Assembly: GCF_004216905.1 (NCBI RefSeq)
Contig: NZ_SGXJ01000002.1
Location: 1,116,001-1,180,000 of the forward strand
Source of the DNA: Kribbella sp. VKM Ac-2569
GTDB lineage: Bacteria; Actinomycetota; Actinomycetes; Propionibacteriales; Kribbellaceae
Direction of reading: 5' to 3'
DNA: 64,000 nucleotides
Shown: positions 26,480 through 34,918 of the stretch, one piece after another
How positions within the stretch are numbered: the stretch's first letter is position 1
Layout: each line of letters opens with the position of its first letter
Program-made: the position numbers and the translations under genes
The notes under the pieces: model-generated
Database searches by the model: none
What the model saw: the letters and a program-made list of their open reading frames with translations, nothing else
What the model was told of the DNA's origin: nothing

Positions 26480-27792
26480 AACGACAGTCCGAGGTGATCG
26501 CGAAGGGTCGTGCCGGCGTATTCCGAGCGGAAAACGCCGCGTTCGCGGAGCAGGGGGACGACGCGGTCTACGAAGTCGTCGAGGCCGGACGGAGTGAGGT
26601 GCGGAACGAGTACGAAACCGTCGGCCGCGTTTTCCTGGACGTGCCGGTTGACGGCCTCCGCGACCGTGGTGGGTGAACCGACGAACGTCTGCCGGTTCTG
26701 CTGGTTGATGACGGTCTGCCGTAGCGACCAGCCGTGCGCCTCCGCCTGCGCCCGCCACTCGGAAACGATCGGAAACGGATCGTTGTACCCGACCCGCCCC
26801 CGTGTCACCGACGACCCGACGACCGGGTCCTCGGCCGGCAGCGGACCGTCCGGGTCGTACGCCGAGAGATCGCGTCCCCAGAGCAGTTCGGCCAGCACCA
26901 ACGCGGTCGGACCGGAAACCTGCTGCTCCCGGATGTACGCCGCTTTCTCGATCGCGTCGGCGTCCGTGTCCGCGACCACGACCGTCACCGCGGGCATGAT
27001 CTTCAGCGACTCGTCGGTCCGCCCGTACTTCGCCAGCCGCGCCTTCACGTCCTTGTAGAAGGTCTGCCCGCCTTCGAACGTCCCGTGCCGGCTGAAGATC
27101 ACGTCCGCGCTCGAGGCCGCGAACTCGCGTCCCTCATCGCTGTCGCCGGCCTGGATGATCACCGGCCGGCCCTGCGGCGACGGCGGCAGACCGAACCGCC
27201 CGCGGATCGTGAAGTGGGCGCCGTCGTCCGCGAAGGCCCCAGCGCCCTCGCGGGCGAACGCACCCGCCGCCTGGTCGAGGACGAGTTCGTCACCGTTCCA
27301 GGAATCCCAGAGTTTCCGTACGATCCGGAGCGATTCCTGCGCGCGGACGTACCGGTCGCCCTTGTCCAGGTACCCGCCGCGGCGGAAGTTCTCGCCGGTG
27401 AACGCGTCCCAGGACGTCACGACGTTCCAGGCCGCGCGGCCGTTGGAGACGTGGTCGAGGGTCGAGAGCCGTTTCGCCAGTTCGTACGGCTCGTTGAAGG
27501 TCGAGTTGACGGTCGCGGCCAGGCCGAGGTGCGTCGTGACCGAGGCGAGCGCGCTGAGCACGGTCAGCGACTCTGGCCGGCCGACGACGTCCAGGTCGTG
27601 GATCCTCCCCTTCACCTCGCGCAGCCGCAGCCCCTCGGCCAGGAAGAAGAAGTCGAACGTCCCGCGTTCCGCGGTTTCCGCAAGTTGCCGGAACGATCCG
27701 AAATCGATCTGCGACCCGGCCACGGGGTCCGACCAGATGGTCGTGTTGTTCACGCCCGGAAAATGCGCGGCAAGATGGATCTGCTTGGTCAT
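26476..27792 (-). CDS. NtaA/DszA-type LLM flavin-dependent monooxygenase
   Basis: This 438-residue protein is of the long NtaA/SnaA/DszA branch of LLM enzymes (TKQIHLAAHFPGVNNTTIWSDP, NVVTSWDAFTGENFRRGG, GRFGLPPSPQGRPVIIQAGDSDEGREFAA, then SRHGTFEGGQTFYKDVKARL). Relatives cleave C-N or C-S bonds, including sulfone desulfurisation by DszA, with FMNH2 from a separate reductase. Gene ends overlap both neighbours as ATGA. The length is usual. The operon context favours a sulfur compound over a chelator such as NTA. Confidence 0.92.
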   Translation of the reverse strand: MTKQIHLAAHFPGVNNTTIWSDPVAGSQIDFGSFRQLAETAERGTFDFFFLAEGLRLREVKGRIHDLDVVGRPESLTVLSALASVTTHLGLAATVNSTFNEPYELAKRLSTLDHVSNGRAAWNVVTSWDAFTGENFRRGGYLDKGDRYVRAQESLRIVRKLWDSWNGDELVLDQAAGAFAREGAGAFADDGAHFTIRGRFGLPPSPQGRPVIIQAGDSDEGREFAASSADVIFSRHGTFEGGQTFYKDVKARLAKYGRTDESLKIMPAVTVVVADTDADAIEKAAYIREQQVSGPTALVLAELLWGRDLSAYDPDGPLPAEDPVVGSSVTRGRVGYNDPFPIVSEWRAQAEAHGWSLRQTVINQQNRQTFVGSPTTVAEAVNRHVQENAADGFVLVPHLTPSGLDDFVDRVVPLLRERGVFRSEYAGTTLRDHLGLSL

Positions 27793-28868
27793 CGCACACT
27801 CCTCGCGTACCTGTTCTGCGGCCGCCGCAACCCGAGCCGCCCGCGCAAACTCCCGCCCTGCTCCCCGGACCCGACCAAGCCGCGTTCCCGCAGCACCGGC
27901 AGCAACTGCTCCGCGATCACCGGCACGTCGAGCTCGAGCGACGCCGGCCGAAGCTGTACGCCGTCAACGCCCGCCGCGGCCCATCCCTCGATCAACGAGG
28001 CGAGCCGCTCGACACCGTCGACGTGCGGCCGCACCTCGGCGGACACGAGCACCAGCGGCCCGACCACCTGGTCCGACGTCAAAGTCACACTCCGATCGGC
28101 GAGCGTCACACTGCGACCAGCGTTTTCCCGCAGCTCCCGCACCCGGGTCGACAGGTCGCCGGAATCCGGCAGAAACACCAGTTCCGCGTCAGCGGCTGCG
28201 TCCAACGCCTCCGGGCTGGTGACCCGGATCGCGGTGATCGGGTGCCCCTGCGGCGGCCGCGGGACGATCGACGGACCTTTGACACTGAACGTCGGTGTTT
28301 CGAAGTCGACGTAGTGCAGCTTCTCCCGATCGACGAACCGCCCGGTGGCAGCGTCGCGGATGACCGCGTCGTCCTCCCACGAGTCCCACAGGCGACGCCC
28401 GGCGTCGACGACGTACCGCGCCTCGCGCCACGTCTCGGCGGCCGCAGCCGGCTCGCGCCGCCCGATCACCGCAGCCGCTTCGGCCGATGTCGAGACGTCC
28501 GCGATCCATCCGGCCCGGCCACCCGAGATGTGGTCGAGCGTCGCGACCGACGCCTGCACGTGGAACGGTTCCGTGTGCGTGACAGTGATCGTCGGCAGCA
28601 ACCCGATCCGTTGCGTCACCGGCGCGACCCGCGCAGCCAGCCCGAGTGCATCCAGCCGGACACTCACCTGATCGAGTACGTCGTCCGGCGCCTCGAGCGC
28701 GTCCGCGAACGTCACGAGGTCAACACCCGCAGCCTCCGCCCGCTGCGCCGCGCGTACGGCGAGCTCACCGGTCAGAATCGCCCGCGGATCAACCTCCGGA
28801 GCACGCCACGCCCCAGGATCCCCGCCCGCCCCGTCGATCTCGATCGCCGTGATCAACCCCCGGCTCAT
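27789..28868 (-). CDS. LLM class flavin-dependent oxidoreductase
   Basis: This 359-residue LLM protein has VDLVTFADALEAPDD, TQRIGLLPTITVTHTEPFHVQASVATLDHISGGRAGWIADVST, and a C-terminal VIAEQLLPVLRERGLVGS. It is a more diverged member with a typical NtaA-like flavin site and slightly short C-terminal insert. Its ATG overlaps the stop of the SsuE-GNAT gene and its stop overlaps the NtaA-type gene. Together with the neighbouring LLM proteins it gives the operon four paralogous monooxygenases, likely for different sulfonates, sulfones or thioethers. Confidence 0.88.
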   Translation of the reverse strand: MSRGLITAIEIDGAGGDPGAWRAPEVDPRAILTGELAVRAAQRAEAAGVDLVTFADALEAPDDVLDQVSVRLDALGLAARVAPVTQRIGLLPTITVTHTEPFHVQASVATLDHISGGRAGWIADVSTSAEAAAVIGRREPAAAAETWREARYVVDAGRRLWDSWEDDAVIRDAATGRFVDREKLHYVDFETPTFSVKGPSIVPRPPQGHPITAIRVTSPEALDAAADAELVFLPDSGDLSTRVRELRENAGRSVTLADRSVTLTSDQVVGPLVLVSAEVRPHVDGVERLASLIEGWAAAGVDGVQLRPASLELDVPVIAEQLLPVLRERGLVGSGEQGGSLRGRLGLRRPQNRYARSVR

Positions 28869-29920
28869 GACGCCACCTTCAACGCGACCGGGAGGTCCTT
28901 CCTGAACGGCAGCGGACCGATCGACTCGGGATCGGCCTCGGTGTCGAACTGCGGCTCGAACCCGACCGCCAGATACAATCCAGCCGCCTCGGGCTGCCGC
29001 GGACCGGTTGTCAGATACAACCGCCGATACCCGAGATCGAGCGCCGCCGCCTCCAGTTCGGCGAGCACGCGACGCCCCAACCCCTGCCGGCGATGCAGAT
29101 GCGACGTCCACATCCGCTTCACCTCGGCGGTCTCGTCGTCGTACCGACGGATCGCGCCGCCGGCAACCGTCTGGCCGCCGTGCCGCAGCAGCACGAACGC
29201 GCCGCCCCGCTCGACGTGAAAGTCCGACGGCGGTACTTCGGTCAACTGCGTGTTCTCGTTCGTACGCCCGTACCGCGTGCTGTACTCGACGACCAGATCC
29301 GCCAGCAACGGCGCCGCCTCGGGATCCTCCGGCCGCGCCCGGATCGCCTCCACCGCAGCGATCTGCACCGGCGTACTCTCCACTGGCTGTTCGCCCTCGA
29401 CGGTCGCGAGGAACGCCTCCGTCACCTGATACAGCGGGACCGATGCCACCGGATCGAGCAGCAGCCCGCCGCCGTCGTACAGCTGGACGTGCGAGGACAG
29501 GACGAACCACCCCTGCCCGATCGCGCCCGCGCCGAGGCTGGTGAGCACCGGCCGGAGGGCGTAGTCGATCACCAGCACATGCGCCGGCGTACCACCCGTT
29601 GCCAGCGGCAACACTGTCTTGCCCTTCAACGCGTACTGCGGCAACAGGTCGAGAAACACCTTCAGCAAACCGGAGTACGCCGCCTTGTAGACCGGGGTCG
29701 TGACCACGACCGCATCCGCGTTCTCGAGCACTGCGGCCGCTGCGGAAATCGCTGGATCGTCGGCCTGACCGCGCAGCAACGGCTCGGCCGGAAGATCGCG
29801 CAACACGATCGGTGTGACGGTGTGGCCGTGGCTGATCAGGCGCTTGGTGACATAGTCGAGAACCGCGTCGGTCCGCGACGGGACCGAGGGGCTGCTGGAG
29901 ATCGTTGCAATGGTCGCCAT
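28865..29920 (-). CDS. SsuE-type NADPH:FMN reductase fused to GNAT acetyltransferase
   Basis: This 351-residue protein joins two domains. Residues 1-180 are a flavodoxin-fold FMN reductase like SsuE (ISSSPSVPSRTDAVLDYV, PVYKAAYSGLLKVFLDLLPQYAL, VLPLATGG and IDYALRPVLTSLGA). Residues about 205-345 are a GNAT N-acetyltransferase (VKRMWTSHLHRRQGLGRRVL with the acetyl-CoA site, then LYLTTGP and GLYLAVGFEP). The reductase supplies FMNH2 to the LLM monooxygenases; the GNAT may acetylate a thiol amine such as cysteine or a toxic intermediate. ATG 29920 has AGGAG 6 bases upstream. The fusion is the clearest oddity of the operon; no frame change is needed to read it. Confidence 0.9.
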   Translation of the reverse strand: MATIATISSSPSVPSRTDAVLDYVTKRLISHGHTVTPIVLRDLPAEPLLRGQADDPAISAAAAVLENADAVVVTTPVYKAAYSGLLKVFLDLLPQYALKGKTVLPLATGGTPAHVLVIDYALRPVLTSLGAGAIGQGWFVLSSHVQLYDGGGLLLDPVASVPLYQVTEAFLATVEGEQPVESTPVQIAAVEAIRARPEDPEAAPLLADLVVEYSTRYGRTNENTQLTEVPPSDFHVERGGAFVLLRHGGQTVAGGAIRRYDDETAEVKRMWTSHLHRRQGLGRRVLAELEAAALDLGYRRLYLTTGPRQPEAAGLYLAVGFEPQFDTEADPESIGPLPFRKDLPVALKVAS

Positions 29921-29929
29921 TGAGTTCTC

Positions 29930-30886
29930 CTATTTCTTCGGCAGACCGGGCGGGTTGATCAAGGACTTCGGGACGGCCTCGCCCTGCAGGCCCCACTTGG
30001 CCAGCACCTTCGCATAGCTGCCGTCGACGATCGCCGCGTTCAGTGCGTCCGCGAGCGGCTTGACGAGACCGTTGTCCTTCTTGGTCGTGATCCCGACCAG
30101 GCCCTGCACGGGATAGCTGGACGAGACGGTGCCGACGATCTCGGTCTTGTGCTGAGTCGCGACGTGGTACGACGCGTTCGGGTTCGGGCCGAGGTACAGG
30201 TCGATCCGGCCGGACTGCAGCGCGAGGTAGGTGTCCGCGGCCTGCTGGTAGTACTTGAGGTTCGCGGGTTTCCGCCCGGCCGCGACGTTCTGCTTGTTCC
30301 AGTCGACCAGGATCGCTTCCTGCAACGTTCCGGAACCGACCGCGACGTTCTTTCCGGAAAGGTCCGCCGGGCCGGTGACCTTCAGCCCCGATCCCAGCTT
30401 CGCCTCGAACGCGTGCAGCCCGAGCCGGTACGTCGCGAAGTCGTACTTCTCCTTGCGCAGTTCGGAAACTCCGATGTTCGAGATTCCGACCTGGTATTTC
30501 CCGGAGTCCAGCCCGAGGAACAGGTTCTCCCAGCTCGTCGTTTCGATCTCGGCCTGCAGCCCGAGCACGCTCGCGACCAGGTAGGCGATGTCGATCTCGA
30601 CCCCGATCGGCGTCTTGTTGTCGTCCGCCGTGAACCCGAGCGGCGGCAGACCGCCGCCGGCCGAGCCGTTCCCGATCACCAGCTTCCCGGACTCCCGCAC
30701 CGAGGCCGGCAACTCGGCCGCGATGCTGTCCACCTTCGCCGAGGTGATGTGCTTCTGGTCGGCCGAGGTGTCGAACGCCACCGCCGACGTGTCACCGCTC
30801 TTGGCAGCGGGTTCAGTTTGTGGATCCGCACAAGCAGCCGCCGCCAGCAGAACCATGCCGAGCACCAAGCTCCAACGTTTTCTCAT
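29930..30886 (-). CDS. Amino-acid-type ABC transporter substrate-binding lipoprotein 2
   Basis: This 318-residue family 3 solute-binding protein has a lipoprotein signal (MRKRWSLVLGMVLLAAAACAD; lipobox AAAC). The core shows LPPLGFTADDNKTPIGVEIDIAYLVASVLG and YDFATYRLG, as in polar amino acid binding proteins. It is about the same length as, and plainly paralogous to, the product of 30896-31828; both end in a similar NPPGLP tail. It lies 9 bases downstream of that gene and has its own GAGG site. A sulfur-containing amino acid or sulfonate ligand is likely from context. Confidence 0.92.
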   Translation of the reverse strand: MRKRWSLVLGMVLLAAAACADPQTEPAAKSGDTSAVAFDTSADQKHITSAKVDSIAAELPASVRESGKLVIGNGSAGGGLPPLGFTADDNKTPIGVEIDIAYLVASVLGLQAEIETTSWENLFLGLDSGKYQVGISNIGVSELRKEKYDFATYRLGLHAFEAKLGSGLKVTGPADLSGKNVAVGSGTLQEAILVDWNKQNVAAGRKPANLKYYQQAADTYLALQSGRIDLYLGPNPNASYHVATQHKTEIVGTVSSSYPVQGLVGITTKKDNGLVKPLADALNAAIVDGSYAKVLAKWGLQGEAVPKSLINPPGLPKK

Positions 30887-30895
30887 CAGTTGTCC

Positions 30896-31828
30896 TCAGC
30901 TCGTCAGGGGAAGGCCGGGCGGGTTGATCTCGGACTTGGCGACCGCCTCGGTCGACACGTTCCAGCGGTCCAGAACCTTGGCGTAGCTGCCGTCCGCGAT
31001 CACGCCGTCGATCGCCGCCTGGTAGGCCTTCACCAGGCCGTTGTCCTTCTTCGTGGTGGCCGCAATCAGGCCCTGTAGCGTCGGCCCGGCGCCGGAGAAC
31101 TTGCCGATCGTCTCGGTCTCACCGGACGTCTTCACGTGGTAGGCGATCGACGGGTTCGGACCGAGGTACCCGTCGATCCGGCCGGAACTCAGCGCCAGGT
31201 ACGTGTCGGTGTTCTTCTGGAAGTACTTGATCGTTGCCGCCGGCAACCCGGCCTTGACGTTGGCCTCGTTCCAGTCGACCAGGATCTTCTCCTGATTCGT
31301 CCCCGAGCTGACCGCAATCGTTTTCCCGGCGATGTCCTTGCCACCGGTGACCCGCCAGGTCCCGCCCTTCTTCGCCTCGAACGCGATGTCGTCCTTGCGG
31401 TACGTCGCGAAGTCGTACTTCTGCTTGCGCTTCTCCGTCACGGTGATGTTCGAGAAGCCCACGTCGTACTTGGCCGAGTCGAGGCCGACGAACAGGTTCT
31501 CCCAGCTGGTGACCTGGACCTCAGGCTGTAGCCCGAGCGCCTGGGCGACCAGGTAGGCGATGTCCACCTCCAGCCCGATCGGGGTCTTGTTGTCGTCGGC
31601 GTAGAAGCCGAGCGGCACGCTGCCGCTGCCGAAACCGGCACCGACGACCAACGTGCCGCGGTCCCGGACCTTCGCCGGCAGCAACGCGGCAGCGGCATCG
31701 TTGCGAGTGGTGGTGACACGGTTCTGCTCGGCGGAGGTGTTGACCCCGGTGTCCGAGGCAGCGGTGGCCTGTACACCACAACCGGCCAGCGTGAGCAGCG
31801 CAAGGGAGAGGACAAGAAGTCGTTTCAT
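30896..31828 (-). CDS. Amino-acid-type ABC transporter substrate-binding lipoprotein 1
   Basis: This 310-residue family 3 solute-binding protein carries a lipobox LAGC after a hydrophobic leader (MKRLLVLSLALLTLAGCG). VPLGFYADDNKTPIGLEVDIAYLVAQALG and GYLGPNPSIAYHV match its downstream paralog. ATG 31828 shares one base with the stop of the ATPase gene (TGATG); GTG 31831 is an alternative. The two tandem binding proteins would share a single permease and ATPase and widen the range of ligands. Confidence 0.92.
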   Translation of the reverse strand: MKRLLVLSLALLTLAGCGVQATAASDTGVNTSAEQNRVTTTRNDAAAALLPAKVRDRGTLVVGAGFGSGSVPLGFYADDNKTPIGLEVDIAYLVAQALGLQPEVQVTSWENLFVGLDSAKYDVGFSNITVTEKRKQKYDFATYRKDDIAFEAKKGGTWRVTGGKDIAGKTIAVSSGTNQEKILVDWNEANVKAGLPAATIKYFQKNTDTYLALSSGRIDGYLGPNPSIAYHVKTSGETETIGKFSGAGPTLQGLIAATTKKDNGLVKAYQAAIDGVIADGSYAKVLDRWNVSTEAVAKSEINPPGLPLTS

Positions 31829-32580
31829 CACAGCACCTTCGAGATGAACGCACGGGTGCGCTCGTGGACGGGGTTGTCGAGCACTTCGCGCGGTGGACCG
31901 GACTCGACGATGCGGCCGTCGTCGATGAAGACGACCGTGTCGGCGATCTCCCGGGCGAAGCCGATCTCGTGGGTGACGACGACCATCGTCGAGCCGTCGC
32001 GGGCGAGTTCCTTGATCACGTCGAGGACCTCGCCGACGAGCTCCGGGTCCAGCGCGCTGGTCGGCTCGTCGAACAGCAGGACCTTCGGTTTCAGCGCCAG
32101 CGCGCGAGCGATCGCGACACGTTGCTGCTGACCGCCGGACAGTTGCCGCGGATAGGCGTCCGCCTTCTCGCCGACGCCGACGCGCTCCAGCAGGTCCCGC
32201 GCGAACGGCTCGACCTCGCTGCGCTTGCGGCGCTGCGCCGACACGGGCGCCTCGACGACGTTCTCCAGCGCGGTGAGATGCCCGAACAGGTTGAAGTTCT
32301 GGAACACGAACCCGACCTGCGACCGCTGCCGGAGGATGTCGCGCTCCCGCAGCTCGTGCAGCTTGTCGCCGCGGCGTCTGTACCCGATCAGCTCGCCGTC
32401 GATCCGGATCAGCCCGCGATCCACCTTCTCCAGATGGTTGATCGACCGCAGCAGCGTCGACTTCCCCGATCCGGACGGGCCGAGGATCACGGTAACCGCG
32501 CCGGCCTCGACCTCGAGGTCGATCCCCTTCAGTACTTCGAGCTCGCCGAAGCTCTTGTGCACACCCTTCACGTCGATCAT
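31828..32580 (-). CDS. Amino acid ABC transporter ATP-binding protein
   Basis: This 250-residue ATPase has the Walker A motif GPSGSGKST (near residue 34), Q-loop FQNFNLFGHLT, signature LSGGQQQRVAIARAL, Walker B VLLFDEPTSALD and the switch histidine in VVTHEIGFA. It is of the polar amino acid uptake (GlnQ-like) group, consistent with the permease and family 3 binding proteins. It overlaps the permease gene as ATGA. It works at the inner face of the membrane as a homodimer, powering import. Confidence 0.96.
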   Translation of the reverse strand: MIDVKGVHKSFGELEVLKGIDLEVEAGAVTVILGPSGSGKSTLLRSINHLEKVDRGLIRIDGELIGYRRRGDKLHELRERDILRQRSQVGFVFQNFNLFGHLTALENVVEAPVSAQRRKRSEVEPFARDLLERVGVGEKADAYPRQLSGGQQQRVAIARALALKPKVLLFDEPTSALDPELVGEVLDVIKELARDGSTMVVVTHEIGFAREIADTVVFIDDGRIVESGPPREVLDNPVHERTRAFISKVL

Positions 32581-33470
32581 CGCGTCGTACCTCGCGCGAA
32601 GCGGCGTTCCACGTAGTACTGCACGATCGACAGCAGTGTGGTCAGCACGATGTACCAGACCGTGGCGACCATCAGCAGCGGTACGACGCGGCTGTTCCGG
32701 CCGTAGATCACCTGCACCTGGTAGAAGAGCTCCGGGATCGCCATCACCGAGACGATCGAGGTGCCCTTGAACAGACTGATCACCTCGTTCGCGCCGTTCG
32801 GCAGGATCGAGCGCATCGCCTGCGGCAGCACGATCCGGAAGAACTGCCGCCGTTTCGGAATCCCCAGTGCGGCGGCGGCTTCGGTCTGGCCGGCGTCGAC
32901 GGAAATGATTCCACCGCGGATGATTTCCGCGGCGTACGCCGCCTGATGCAGAGCCAGTCCCAGTACGGCGGCGCCGAGCGGACCGAACAGGTTGTTCGTA
33001 CTGAAGTGCACGAACTCCGGGCCGAACGGGATGCCGAGGCTGAGCTCCTGGTAGAGGTACGCGATGTTGAACCAGAACAGCAGCTGCACGATCAACGGGA
33101 TCGAGCGGAACGCCCAGATGTAGCCCCAGGCAACTACTTGCAGGAACGGGCTGCCGGACAACCGCATCGACGCGAGGACGGCGCCGAGCACGAACCCGAG
33201 CACCGTGCCGTACACCGTCAGCTGCACGGTCACCCAGAGCGCCGAGAAGACGGTCTTGGTGGCGAAGAACTGGAAGAAGGTCGGCCAGTCCCAGCCCGGG
33301 TTGGTGGCCAGTCCGTGCACGAACATCGCGAGCAGGACGAGTACGACGCCGACACCGACCCAGCGCCACGGATGTCGCCGGGCTACGACGGTCAGATCGG
33401 CTTCGAGCGGTACTGCGGTCGCCGGCGGTCCGGTCGTACCGGACGCAGACGTGACTGAAGTGGTGGACAC
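32577..33470 (-). CDS. Amino acid ABC transporter permease
   Basis: This 297-residue membrane protein has a 30-residue Thr/Ala-rich cytoplasmic N-terminus, then about five to six membrane segments, with the HAAT-family loop EAAAALGIPKRRQFFRIVLPQAMRSILP. The GTG start 33470 has AGGGAG about 7 bases upstream. It is the first protein gene of the operon after the leader peptide. As the only permease it would form a homodimer. Confidence 0.94.
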   Translation of the reverse strand: MSTTSVTSASGTTGPPATAVPLEADLTVVARRHPWRWVGVGVVLVLLAMFVHGLATNPGWDWPTFFQFFATKTVFSALWVTVQLTVYGTVLGFVLGAVLASMRLSGSPFLQVVAWGYIWAFRSIPLIVQLLFWFNIAYLYQELSLGIPFGPEFVHFSTNNLFGPLGAAVLGLALHQAAYAAEIIRGGIISVDAGQTEAAAALGIPKRRQFFRIVLPQAMRSILPNGANEVISLFKGTSIVSVMAIPELFYQVQVIYGRNSRVVPLLMVATVWYIVLTTLLSIVQYYVERRFARGTTR

Positions 33471-33538
33471 GATGACACTCCCTGGCGGTGGGCAGGCTTC
33501 GCGGGCCCTGCGACGGCGGAGGGCGGCAGCGGGCAGCA

Positions 33539-33558
33539 GGCGTCCGGAACCGGACGCC
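33539..33558 (-). terminator. Attenuator-like hairpin between leader peptide and permease gene
   Basis: GGCGTCCGG (33539-33547) and CCGGACGCC (33550-33558) form a perfect stem with a very short loop, 26 bases after the leader stop and about 70 bases before the permease start. No long T run follows. It could act as attenuator or block ribosome access. Confidence 0.55.
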
Positions 33559-33583
33559 CTGACAGGACGTGAGGAGACTCAGG

Positions 33584-33658
33584 TCAGCGCAGACAGAGGG
33601 CGCTGGAAACCCGGAGGAGGTCGATGTGGAGGCGGTAGTACGGCGGCTTGCGCGTCAT
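33584..33658 (-). CDS. Putative cysteine leader peptide, 24 residues
   Basis: The short frame encodes MTRKPPYYRLHIDLLRVSSA followed by LCLR and a TGA stop. ATG 33658 has a GAGGAG site 8 bases upstream, so it is likely translated. The pattern HIDLLRVSSALC resembles the short actinobacterial peptides annotated as putative leader peptides next to sulfur and cysteine genes, where translation of a late Cys codon senses cysteine supply. A strong hairpin lies between the leader stop and the permease start. Low cysteine would stall the ribosome near codon 22 (TGT) and change folding downstream, turning the sulfur operon on. This is inference from pattern and context; the peptide itself is not expected to have another function. 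Confidence 0.8.
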   Translation of the reverse strand: MTRKPPYYRLHIDLLRVSSALCLR

Positions 33659-33708
33659 TCCCGTCTCCTCTCGTCGGTCGTGTCATTTCAGTATGGGACG
33701 CGGCTGAA

Positions 33709-33739
33709 AGATTAGTAAGTCGGTCGACAAAGCTCTCAA
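33709..33739 (-). promoter_or_regulatory. Candidate promoter of the sulfur operon
   Basis: On the minus strand TTGAGA (33739-33734) and TAATCT (33714-33709) are separated by 19 bases. The leader start lies about 50 bases downstream. The CATACT at 33695-33690 is another possible -10. Confidence 0.4.
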
Positions 33740-33913
33740 TATATGGACGCCTTATACCGGCCTGGAGGGCCTGCTCGACGCCAATCGCGGGGTGATCCGC
33801 GTCACGGCGACGGCGACTTTCTTGCCCAACCGGTTCACGCCTGAGCATGCACCGGACGGCAGGACGCCCTCACCGAGCGTGTTCGATTTCGTTGAACTTT
33901 CCGCAATCCGTGT

Positions 33914-33943
33914 TTGAGGGGTTCGTGACCTGCTCGTTATGGT
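33914..33943 (+). promoter_or_regulatory. Candidate promoter of the M23 peptidase gene
   Basis: TTGAGG (33914-33919) and TATGGT (33938-33943) are spaced by 18 bases, and the GTG start lies 54 bases further on. This is a good housekeeping-type match. Confidence 0.5.
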
Positions 33944-33997
33944 CATTCAGTCGCCGTACCCCCTCAACGGCGGATACCCCTCCCTGGAAGGCTTCTC

Positions 33998-34918
33998 GTG
34001 CCCACTCACCAAGACGCGCCGCAATCAGACCGGCAGGCGTCCAGCCGCCCGGCTGCTTCGCGCCGGGTGGCAAAGCACCGCTCCTCCCGCCGCAACGCGA
34101 CCCGCCGTACCCAGCTGATCGGCCTGACCGCCGCACTGGCCGCCGCAGCCGGGACCACGACCGTCGGACTCAGCTCGTCCGTGACCGGTCCGGCCAACGC
34201 ATCCGGGAGCACCGGCCTGAACCCCTCACAGGCCGACGCTCTGACCGCCGCCCGGATCGACCGGCGCGACCTCGGGTCCCGGGACGCGTCCCGGATCGAC
34301 CTGTCGCTCGCGTCGACCCGGAAGGCGGCGGCCGAGACCGCCGCGAAGCAGCGGGCCGCGCGACTGGCCGCGAACGCGACGCTGACGCAGCGCCGGGCGC
34401 TCGCGCTGGCCGCCGCGAAGGCAACCGCCGCGAAGAAGGCCGAAGCGAACGCCAAGGCCCTCGCCGCTGCGAAGAAGGAAGCCCTCGCGAAGGCAGCGGC
34501 GATCAAGGCGGCTGCGGCCCCGAAGATCGTGCTGCCGACCACCGGCTACCACCTGACCGCCCGCTTCAACCAGGCCGGCGGCCGCTGGGCGCACAACCAC
34601 ACCGGTCTCGACTTCGCGGCCCCGATGGGTACGCCGGTTCGCTCGGTGATGGCCGGTGAGGTCATCCAGGCCGACTTCGAAGGCGCGTACGGCCGCCAGG
34701 TGAAGGTGCGGCACGCCGACGGCACGGTCACGTCGTACAGCCACATGTCCGAGTTCGACGTCTCCGTCGGCGACTCGGTCGAGGCCGGCACGATGGTCGG
34801 CCGCATCGGCATGACCGGCAACACCACCGGCCCCCACGTCCACTTCGAGGTCCTCCCCGGAGGCGGCTCCCCCATCGACCCCGAACCCTGGCTCCGCGAA
34901 CACGGCCTCAACCCGTAA
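33998..34918 (+). CDS. M23 family metallopeptidase (LytM-type)
   Basis: This 306-residue exported protein has a basic, long N-terminus and a membrane-type signal (RRTQLIGLTAALAAAAGTTTVG), an Ala/Lys/Arg-rich coiled segment (about residues 105-180), and a C-terminal LytM zinc domain (about 190-295). The zinc ligands sit in HNHTGLDFAAP, and in TGPHVHFE. It likely cuts peptidoglycan cross-links or activates amidases during growth and division. The GTG start has GGAAGG 7 bases upstream. Signal cleavage site is uncertain. Confidence 0.9.
   Translation: MPTHQDAPQSDRQASSRPAASRRVAKHRSSRRNATRRTQLIGLTAALAAAAGTTTVGLSSSVTGPANASGSTGLNPSQADALTAARIDRRDLGSRDASRIDLSLASTRKAAAETAAKQRAARLAANATLTQRRALALAAAKATAAKKAEANAKALAAAKKEALAKAAAIKAAAAPKIVLPTTGYHLTARFNQAGGRWAHNHTGLDFAAPMGTPVRSVMAGEVIQADFEGAYGRQVKVRHADGTVTSYSHMSEFDVSVGDSVEAGTMVGRIGMTGNTTGPHVHFEVLPGGGSPIDPEPWLREHGLNP

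Follow-up and report, generated by a model that had tools for sequence, protein, structure and literature searches.

A conserved single-cysteine leader peptide of the NF042934 family, with a near-invariant TGT codon, precedes a cystine-type ABC transporter operon in Kribbella

In Escherichia coli, the tna operon is subject to Rho-dependent attenuation, in which the leader peptide TnaC stalls in the presence of free tryptophan. The leader described here would resemble TnaC in that a ribosome parked at its end would shield RNA from Rho, but differs in the proposed signal, which is scarce Cys-tRNA rather than a free amino acid. Mycobacteria reportedly possess poly-Cys leaderless short ORFs, said to have been described by Canestrari and colleagues in 2020. 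These share with our leader Cys codons near the stop codon and a position before sulfur genes, whereas ours has one Cys, is preceded by a Shine–Dalgarno (SD) sequence and, in equilibrium folding, is not predicted to unmask the SD of the next gene; the Ms4527A model scored it at 18 bits, below the cut-off of 45. Seliverstov et al. (2005; PMC1262725) gave candidate cys leaders for Mycobacterium, Propionibacterium acnes and Bifidobacterium longum; these too are short ORFs that carry Cys codons close to the stop and lack a terminator, with Rho as one suggested possibility, and they differ from ours in having runs of Cys codons instead of one. The family whose curated cut-off our leader exceeds is NF042934 (cis_reg_atten), a protein model that is blind to codon choice and whose listing offers no mechanism.

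The locus lies in a window of 64,000 nt (the whole stretch of DNA analysed) from Kribbella sp. VKM Ac-2569, and all features given below are on its minus strand. The original prediction of a short frame with a good ribosome-binding site was borne out by a 24 aa ORF, MTRKPPYYRLHIDLLRVSSALCLR (33584–33658), whose ATG is preceded at six bases by the SD sequence GAGGAG (33665–33670), part of a purine-rich block in the orthologues. The predicted Cys codon near the stop is the TGT at 33593–33595, third from the stop and followed by CTG CGC and then TGA; it is present in 24/24 orthologues, and we refer to this proposed sensor codon as register 0. The conserved core R-L-HIDLLRVSSAL-C (33593–33634) spans registers −13 to 0, with variable wobble bases. 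Upstream, a −10-like box, CATACT (33690–33695), marks a putative promoter, CATACTG being invariant in the 24-row alignment, and a conserved block, ACTTACTAATCTTTCA (33705–33720), in the same alignment is a possible −35 region or operator; a mechanical scan for sigma-70 sites gave none. The SD, together with a −10-like box ∼32 nt upstream of the ATG, suggests that the transcript has a 5′ UTR and is probably not leaderless.

Against NCBIfam NF042934 (‘putative leader peptide’) the leader scored 30.7 bits (E-value 1.6 × 10−7, cut-off 27), and a genome search likewise placed it above the cut-off, at 28.9 bits. This match indicates that it belongs to a known family, of which it is an otherwise ordinary member and not a new kind of leader, and gives formal standing to the likeness to actinobacterial sulfur-gene leader peptides noticed originally. 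The accompanying view that such a peptide is too short for routine gene calling calls for correction, as NCBI has a named model for these peptides, and they are therefore not beyond annotation. When the window was dinucleotide-shuffled 100 times, the bare motif R-x3-D-x2-R-x5-C near a stop arose 53 times in all, as against once in the real sequence; it is thus not rare by chance, and the weight of the case rests on conservation.

The leader stop is separated by 113 nt from the GTG (33470) of an amino-acid ABC permease gene of cystine type (32577–33470; BPD_transp_1; PRK15100 141.7 bits, below the cut-off of 300), which has the SD GGGAG (33478–33482) and, in alignment and folding, a small local hairpin, CCTG...CAGG (together 33478–33496). 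This gene is followed by those for a TcyN-type ABC ATPase (31828–32580; PRK11264 318.3 bits, below the cut-off of 406), two solute-binding proteins of family 3 assigned by profile matches (30896–31831 and 29930–30886), an SsuE-type FMN reductase with a C-terminal GNAT domain in a single ORF (28865–29920; TIGR03567 191.1 bits, over the cut-off of 164.05) and a luciferase-like FMN-dependent monooxygenase (27789–28868; Bac_luciferase; TIGR03860 198.1 bits, below the cut-off of 279.7). From their adjacency, the six genes probably form a single operon, and their content would fit uptake and use of cystine or organosulfur compounds. The permease is 99 % identical to copies recorded for K. pratensis and K. 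soli, and the same permease follows the leader in 23/24 genus orthologues. In the remaining locus (L042, genome G005) it is cut to a short remnant, with the SsuE-type gene directly next and the leader kept, which amounts to a natural deletion.

The genome of VKM Ac-2569 contains five NF042934 members at an E-value of 0.0043 or better, two of them above the cut-off, and these precede the cystine-type ABC operon, a TauE/SafE permease, a flavin reductase, a sulfite reductase and a DUF4395–rhodanese pair. Across the genus, all 38 genomes had a match at an E-value of 0.01 (36 above the cut-off), for a total of 149 places; we read 94 of these loci (five from the focal genome plus sets of 29 and 60), 24 of which make up the focal group, A. 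In a sample of the class, 110/148 genomes and 60/82 genera had a match at an E-value of 0.001, with 96 genomes above the cut-off. In a phylum sample searched at a stricter E-value of 10−5 and with fewer candidates scored (at most 29 per genome, against at most 56 in the class sample), 13/296 genomes had a match and the focal genome itself missed the threshold; with candidates limited in this way, absence from a genome proves nothing. Three weak matches were found on plasmids; the one from Streptomyces sp. NBC_01001 carries the annotation ‘putative leader peptide’, and no feature is given at the other two. The 134 class loci (76 genomes) read in detail comprise 30 from the phylum sample, 24 from the class sample and 80 hand-picked among the further matches listed for the latter, and are high-scoring rather than random; where the match was displaced, rows were positioned with a fallback pattern, which demanded the final Cys but left its codon free, and an earlier pattern applied to 54 of the loci left L223 and L243 unmatched. 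Starting instead from 80 relatives of the permease, a strict pattern found a leader upstream of 27, including 12 of Kribbella type (L142–L153) that overlap the genus set, and a relaxed pattern added five, three of them 675–1059 nt away and one with E for D; by both patterns, the leader was absent from the upstream stretch examined in 48/80. One of the Kribbella-type leaders, L152, is from a record titled Streptomyces sp. SID13031, which is probably a mislabelled Kribbella.

Conservation within the focal group follows the peptide. Nucleotide identity was highest for the core, at 0.91, and still 0.84 over the N-terminal codons; it was 0.70 for the 45 nt preceding the ATG, 0.43 and 0.54 for two parts of the spacer and 0.68 for the 60 nt that open the next gene. 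The core thus exceeds all its flanks, and the leader passes the refutation test set with the original prediction, poor conservation of the peptide relative to flanking DNA. Over the 24 orthologues (21 distinct cores), the core had a pS of 0.323 and a pN of 0.011, giving a pN/pS of 0.035; for the four other groups to which this calculation extended, pN/pS was 0.096 (B), 0.062 (B2), 0 (C) and 0.032 (F). The leader N-terminus, by comparison, differs in both length and sequence along the 24-row alignment. These values indicate that selection acts on the leader peptide and not on the DNA as such. With an NF042934 match, 24 genus orthologues, a fixed core, synonymous change and an invariant Cys codon, the leader peptide is more than a chance ORF, and the original prediction was in substance right.

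The same register extends beyond Kribbella: R(−13), D(−9), R(−6) and C(0) occur in 134/134 class loci and L(−8) in 130, although the NF042934 model selects for these residues and their invariance is therefore partly by construction, which is not true of codon choice. The distance from Cys(0) to the stop is 0–5 codons in the genus groups and 3–4 codons in 93/134 class loci. One leader-like frame, RRHIDLQRVCSAMG (L332, genome G230), treated separately because its match ends one position early, carries Gly where the register-0 Cys would stand and has perhaps decayed.

The unexpected part of these data, and what is new, is that the Cys codon at this fixed register relative to the conserved peptide motif is near-invariantly TGT. 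It is TGT in 133/134 class loci, the exception being L324 with TGC, and in all 94 genus loci read; 75/76 class genomes have only TGT at register 0, across different operons. The permease set, collected by a pattern without any condition on the codon, gave TGT in 27/27, 15 of these outside Kribbella. TGT is otherwise the rarer codon: TGC to TGT is 172 : 40 in the genome background of VKM Ac-2569, 287 : 37 in the downstream genes and 136 : 27 at other Cys positions of the same class leaders, among them 53 : 5 at −7 and 43 : 7 at −2. Comparison of register 0 with the other leader Cys codons gave a Fisher P-value of 1.4 × 10−55, uncorrected for relatedness and thus overstating the independence of related loci. 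Wobble bases at other core positions are mixed, mostly G or C. In the poly-Cys leaders L112–L114, which share an R-x-A-V-D-L-C-R register, the tract mixes TGT and TGC and register 0 is again TGT. Among the matches listed in searches of open-licence PMC literature, we did not find the register-0 rule stated, and searches there with core-motif letter strings yielded nothing on bacterial leaders, as judged from titles and the starts of abstracts.

The base after TGT(0) is also skewed, being C in 103, T in 25, A in five and G in one of the class loci, C in 48 and T in 46 of the genus loci, and C in nine and A in six of the non-Kribbella permease set; after Cys codons of downstream genes it is G in 145, C in 102, A in 47 and T in 30 cases. 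A strict rule of a pyrimidine after TGT was considered and discarded, as A follows in 6/15 non-Kribbella permease-linked leaders and only G is avoided. After the leader Cys codon at −7, C is likewise common and G rare (C 52, A 6), which does not hold at −2 (29 C, 11 T, 8 G and 2 A), so that the skew of the neighbouring base carries less weight than the choice of codon. Two tRNA-Cys genes with anticodon GCA were found, by a search pattern that itself contained GCA, so that another isoacceptor is possible. A tRNA with a GCA anticodon reads UGU by G-U wobble. Such wobble, in combination with a non-G neighbour, may slow decoding at UGU.

The genes linked to the 134 class leaders were clustered by BLAST, with one member per cluster, as well as some singletons, tested against Pfam; cluster sizes are approximate because wrong-frame ORFs occur among the members. 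The largest clusters were rhodanese (26), sulfite reductase (25) and DUF4395 (19), followed by cysteine-synthase-type PLP enzymes (7), cysteine dioxygenase (7), solute-binding protein family 5 (7), PAPS reductase (6), ROK (5), luciferase-like proteins (4), NMT1-type binding proteins (4), SDF symporters (3), POR (2), ThiS (2) and, assigned by eye, an SsuE-like cluster of two loci; tested singletons include APS kinase, flavin reductase, TauD and a sulfatase. By these domain matches, most of the tested linked genes are sulfur or cysteine genes; ROK (five loci), solute-binding protein family 5 (seven) and POR (two) have no obvious sulfur role. Leaders of the form RVHMDL[VL]RYAGCVC precede the cysteine dioxygenase cluster at L123, L124, L129, L130, L135, L136 and L265 (Pfam tested on L123). 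Linkage to cysteine dioxygenase is the opposite of sulfur acquisition and is unexplained by a simple starvation switch. At L033, L052 and L058, ARRH[IV]DLMR..SA.C leaders stand before an apparently secreted protein, which at L033 has no Pfam match.

Between the leader stop and the permease SD lies a C-rich, G-poor spacer of 101 nt (33483–33583; C 0.47, G 0.29), which is rut-like by composition only. Across five operon groups, C minus G in the spacer averaged +0.25 and was positive in 69/69, compared with −0.01 for 40 upstream regions of the window taken as controls; in the class set, the 45 nt after the stop were C-rich in 121/134 loci, against 53/133 upstream control stretches, although none of the two loci of group E was C-rich there and the class-set C-richness tails off gradually, across 160 nt and on into the gene. 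The focal spacer is not unstructured in folding. It contains the palindrome GGCGTCCGGTTCCGGACGCC (33539–33558), with 9+9 arms, GGCGTCCGG-TT-CCGGACGCC, which folds into a hairpin of nine pairs, a terminal G-U among them, and a GUUC loop. The hairpin foreseen before the permease gene is therefore real as a palindrome and kept in most orthologues (the stem pattern occurs in 17/23 orthologous spacers), but it has no U-tract and its role as a switch is only putative. No terminator-like site was found in 33400–33800, and Rfam covariance models run on 32000–34500 gave only a sub-threshold ALIL match elsewhere in that interval (17.1 of 50 bits). Two candidate pairings were tried and dropped: the permease SD with CTCCTCC in the leader codons, as others have CTGCTGC and this synonymous variation leaves no conserved anti-SD, and the leader SD with a complement, GTCTCCTC, after the stop (L001), as this is lost in most orthologues.

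We consider it somewhat better than an even bet that this NF042934 leader responds to cysteine, with a pause at UGU allowing the uptake operon to be expressed, most probably by excluding Rho from the spacer. The ribosome would reach the single UGU codon while R-L-HIDLLRVSSAL sits in the exit tunnel and, with Cys-tRNA scarce, would pause there, at a register-0 codon made unusually slow by the conserved chain together with the wobble reading of UGU. Standing near the leader's 3′ end, the paused ribosome would permit expression of the cystine/organosulfur uptake operon, most probably because it would shield the C-rich spacer from Rho; with cysteine plentiful, the ribosome would terminate, the spacer would lie bare and expression would fall. 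Among possible outputs, a C-rich spacer without a U-tract terminator slightly favours Rho, to which C-richness as such points weakly, and we hold to a Rho-dependent output with low confidence. Set against this reading are the cysteine dioxygenase linkage, which is odd for induction by starvation, the lack of a register-0 Cys in L332 and the TGC of L324.

How the pause would be converted into expression is where the first two of four alternatives differ. In translational attenuation, as in mycobacterial poly-Cys leaders, a stalled ribosome would open an RNA structure that otherwise masks the next gene's SD; we regard this as a tentative possibility on the unlikely side. The poly-Cys leaders L112–L114 (from a genus taken to be Mycobacterium), which precede DUF4395/rhodanese genes, share the register, and M. 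smegmatis cysteine genes are said in PMC13236596 to have been shown to be under translation attenuation. We folded the spacers with and without a ribosome in groups A (23/24 loci, as for composition, L037 having no start-pattern match), B (23/25), C (12/14), D (6/10) and F (5/6), the loci left out of the last four likewise lacking the pattern. In group D, the sulfite reductase leaders, the mean unpaired value of the SD rose from 0.178 to 0.444 with the ribosome on the Cys codon, by more than 0.05 in 6/6; smaller rises were seen for the SD of group F (0.295 to 0.379; above 0.05 in 2/5) and the start codon of group B (0.144 to 0.261). However, with the ribosome on the stop the group D SD is equally open (0.485), so that stalling and normal termination are not distinguished. 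For the focal permease SD, the values were 0.254 without a ribosome, 0.257 with one on the Cys codon and 0.219 with one on the stop (23 orthologues, equilibrium folding), and the SD of group B (0.162 to 0.169) and that of group C (0.285 to 0.302) were almost as constant, which led us to reject a ribosome-masked SD switch in these three groups, with the proviso that equilibrium folding can miss kinetic effects. A further point against it is that the focal-group SD lies 64–133 nt from the leader stop. Classical attenuation, with the hairpin at 33539–33558 acting in a terminator/antiterminator pair, seems to us improbable. In its favour, the 17 spacers with the stem present a series of G-C (6), G-U (6) and A-U (5) at the second pair, and the mean fold z-score against shuffles is −0.9, negative in 19/23, albeit only mildly so; yet no U-tract terminator was found, 6/23 spacers miss the stem pattern (L057 and L060 folding a different stem), and no competing antiterminator was seen in the focal-group folds inspected. 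Moreover, with Cys(0) only 0–5 codons from the stop, stalled and terminating ribosomes would cover almost identical RNA.

The other two alternatives concern what the peptide itself does. It might be an arrest peptide that, like TnaC, stalls when cysteine or another signal is abundant. Two observations would suit this reading: a 14-residue register that is held rigidly, its R, D and R unchanging, much as in arrest peptides, and the cysteine dioxygenase genes downstream of some members; the tested linked genes, though, mostly acquire or assimilate sulfur and would be expected to be cysteine-repressed, and we judge it very improbable. That the leader specifies a functional small protein rather than a regulator would agree with the strong conservation of the peptide, but its N-terminus is variable, its end keeps an exact register to a single codon, and synonymous choice at Cys(0) is under a constraint for which a peptide product would have no use; to this we attach hardly any credence.

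Returning to the UGU pause, whether it extends to a class-wide sensor is, in our estimate, evenly balanced: here, the R(−13), D(−9), R(−6) chain and a UGU seldom followed by G would form a tuned slow step, with poly-Cys leaders as a variant. Charged tRNA-Cys would then be read at one codon and not through a Cys run, and a synonymous change of TGT to TGC alone should blunt the response. The data suggest that the ribosome may measure cysteine supply at a single codon; cysteine control in the Actinomycetes seems to be spread over many separate leader ORFs, linked through the ribosome alone. If a single synonymous base, TGT and not TGC, at that fixed register does the sensing, codon choice and nascent chain would act jointly as a metabolite sensor, in a clean and testable form, and much of an actinobacterial cysteine regulon would be readable from sequence.

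The flavin reductase leaders of group C (L003, L088, L089 and others) have TGTCTA-N9-TAGACA ∼21–41 nt upstream of the ATG, and a sulfite reductase leader, L004, has TGAGAT-N3-ATCTCA upstream; these inverted repeats, noticed by eye and not present in every row, are possible operators of a sulfur repressor. Lastly, L327 and L328 (G000:C3, ∼1095447 and 1101198) mark two Gly-Cys-Val tRNA clusters ∼6 kb apart and in opposite orientation.
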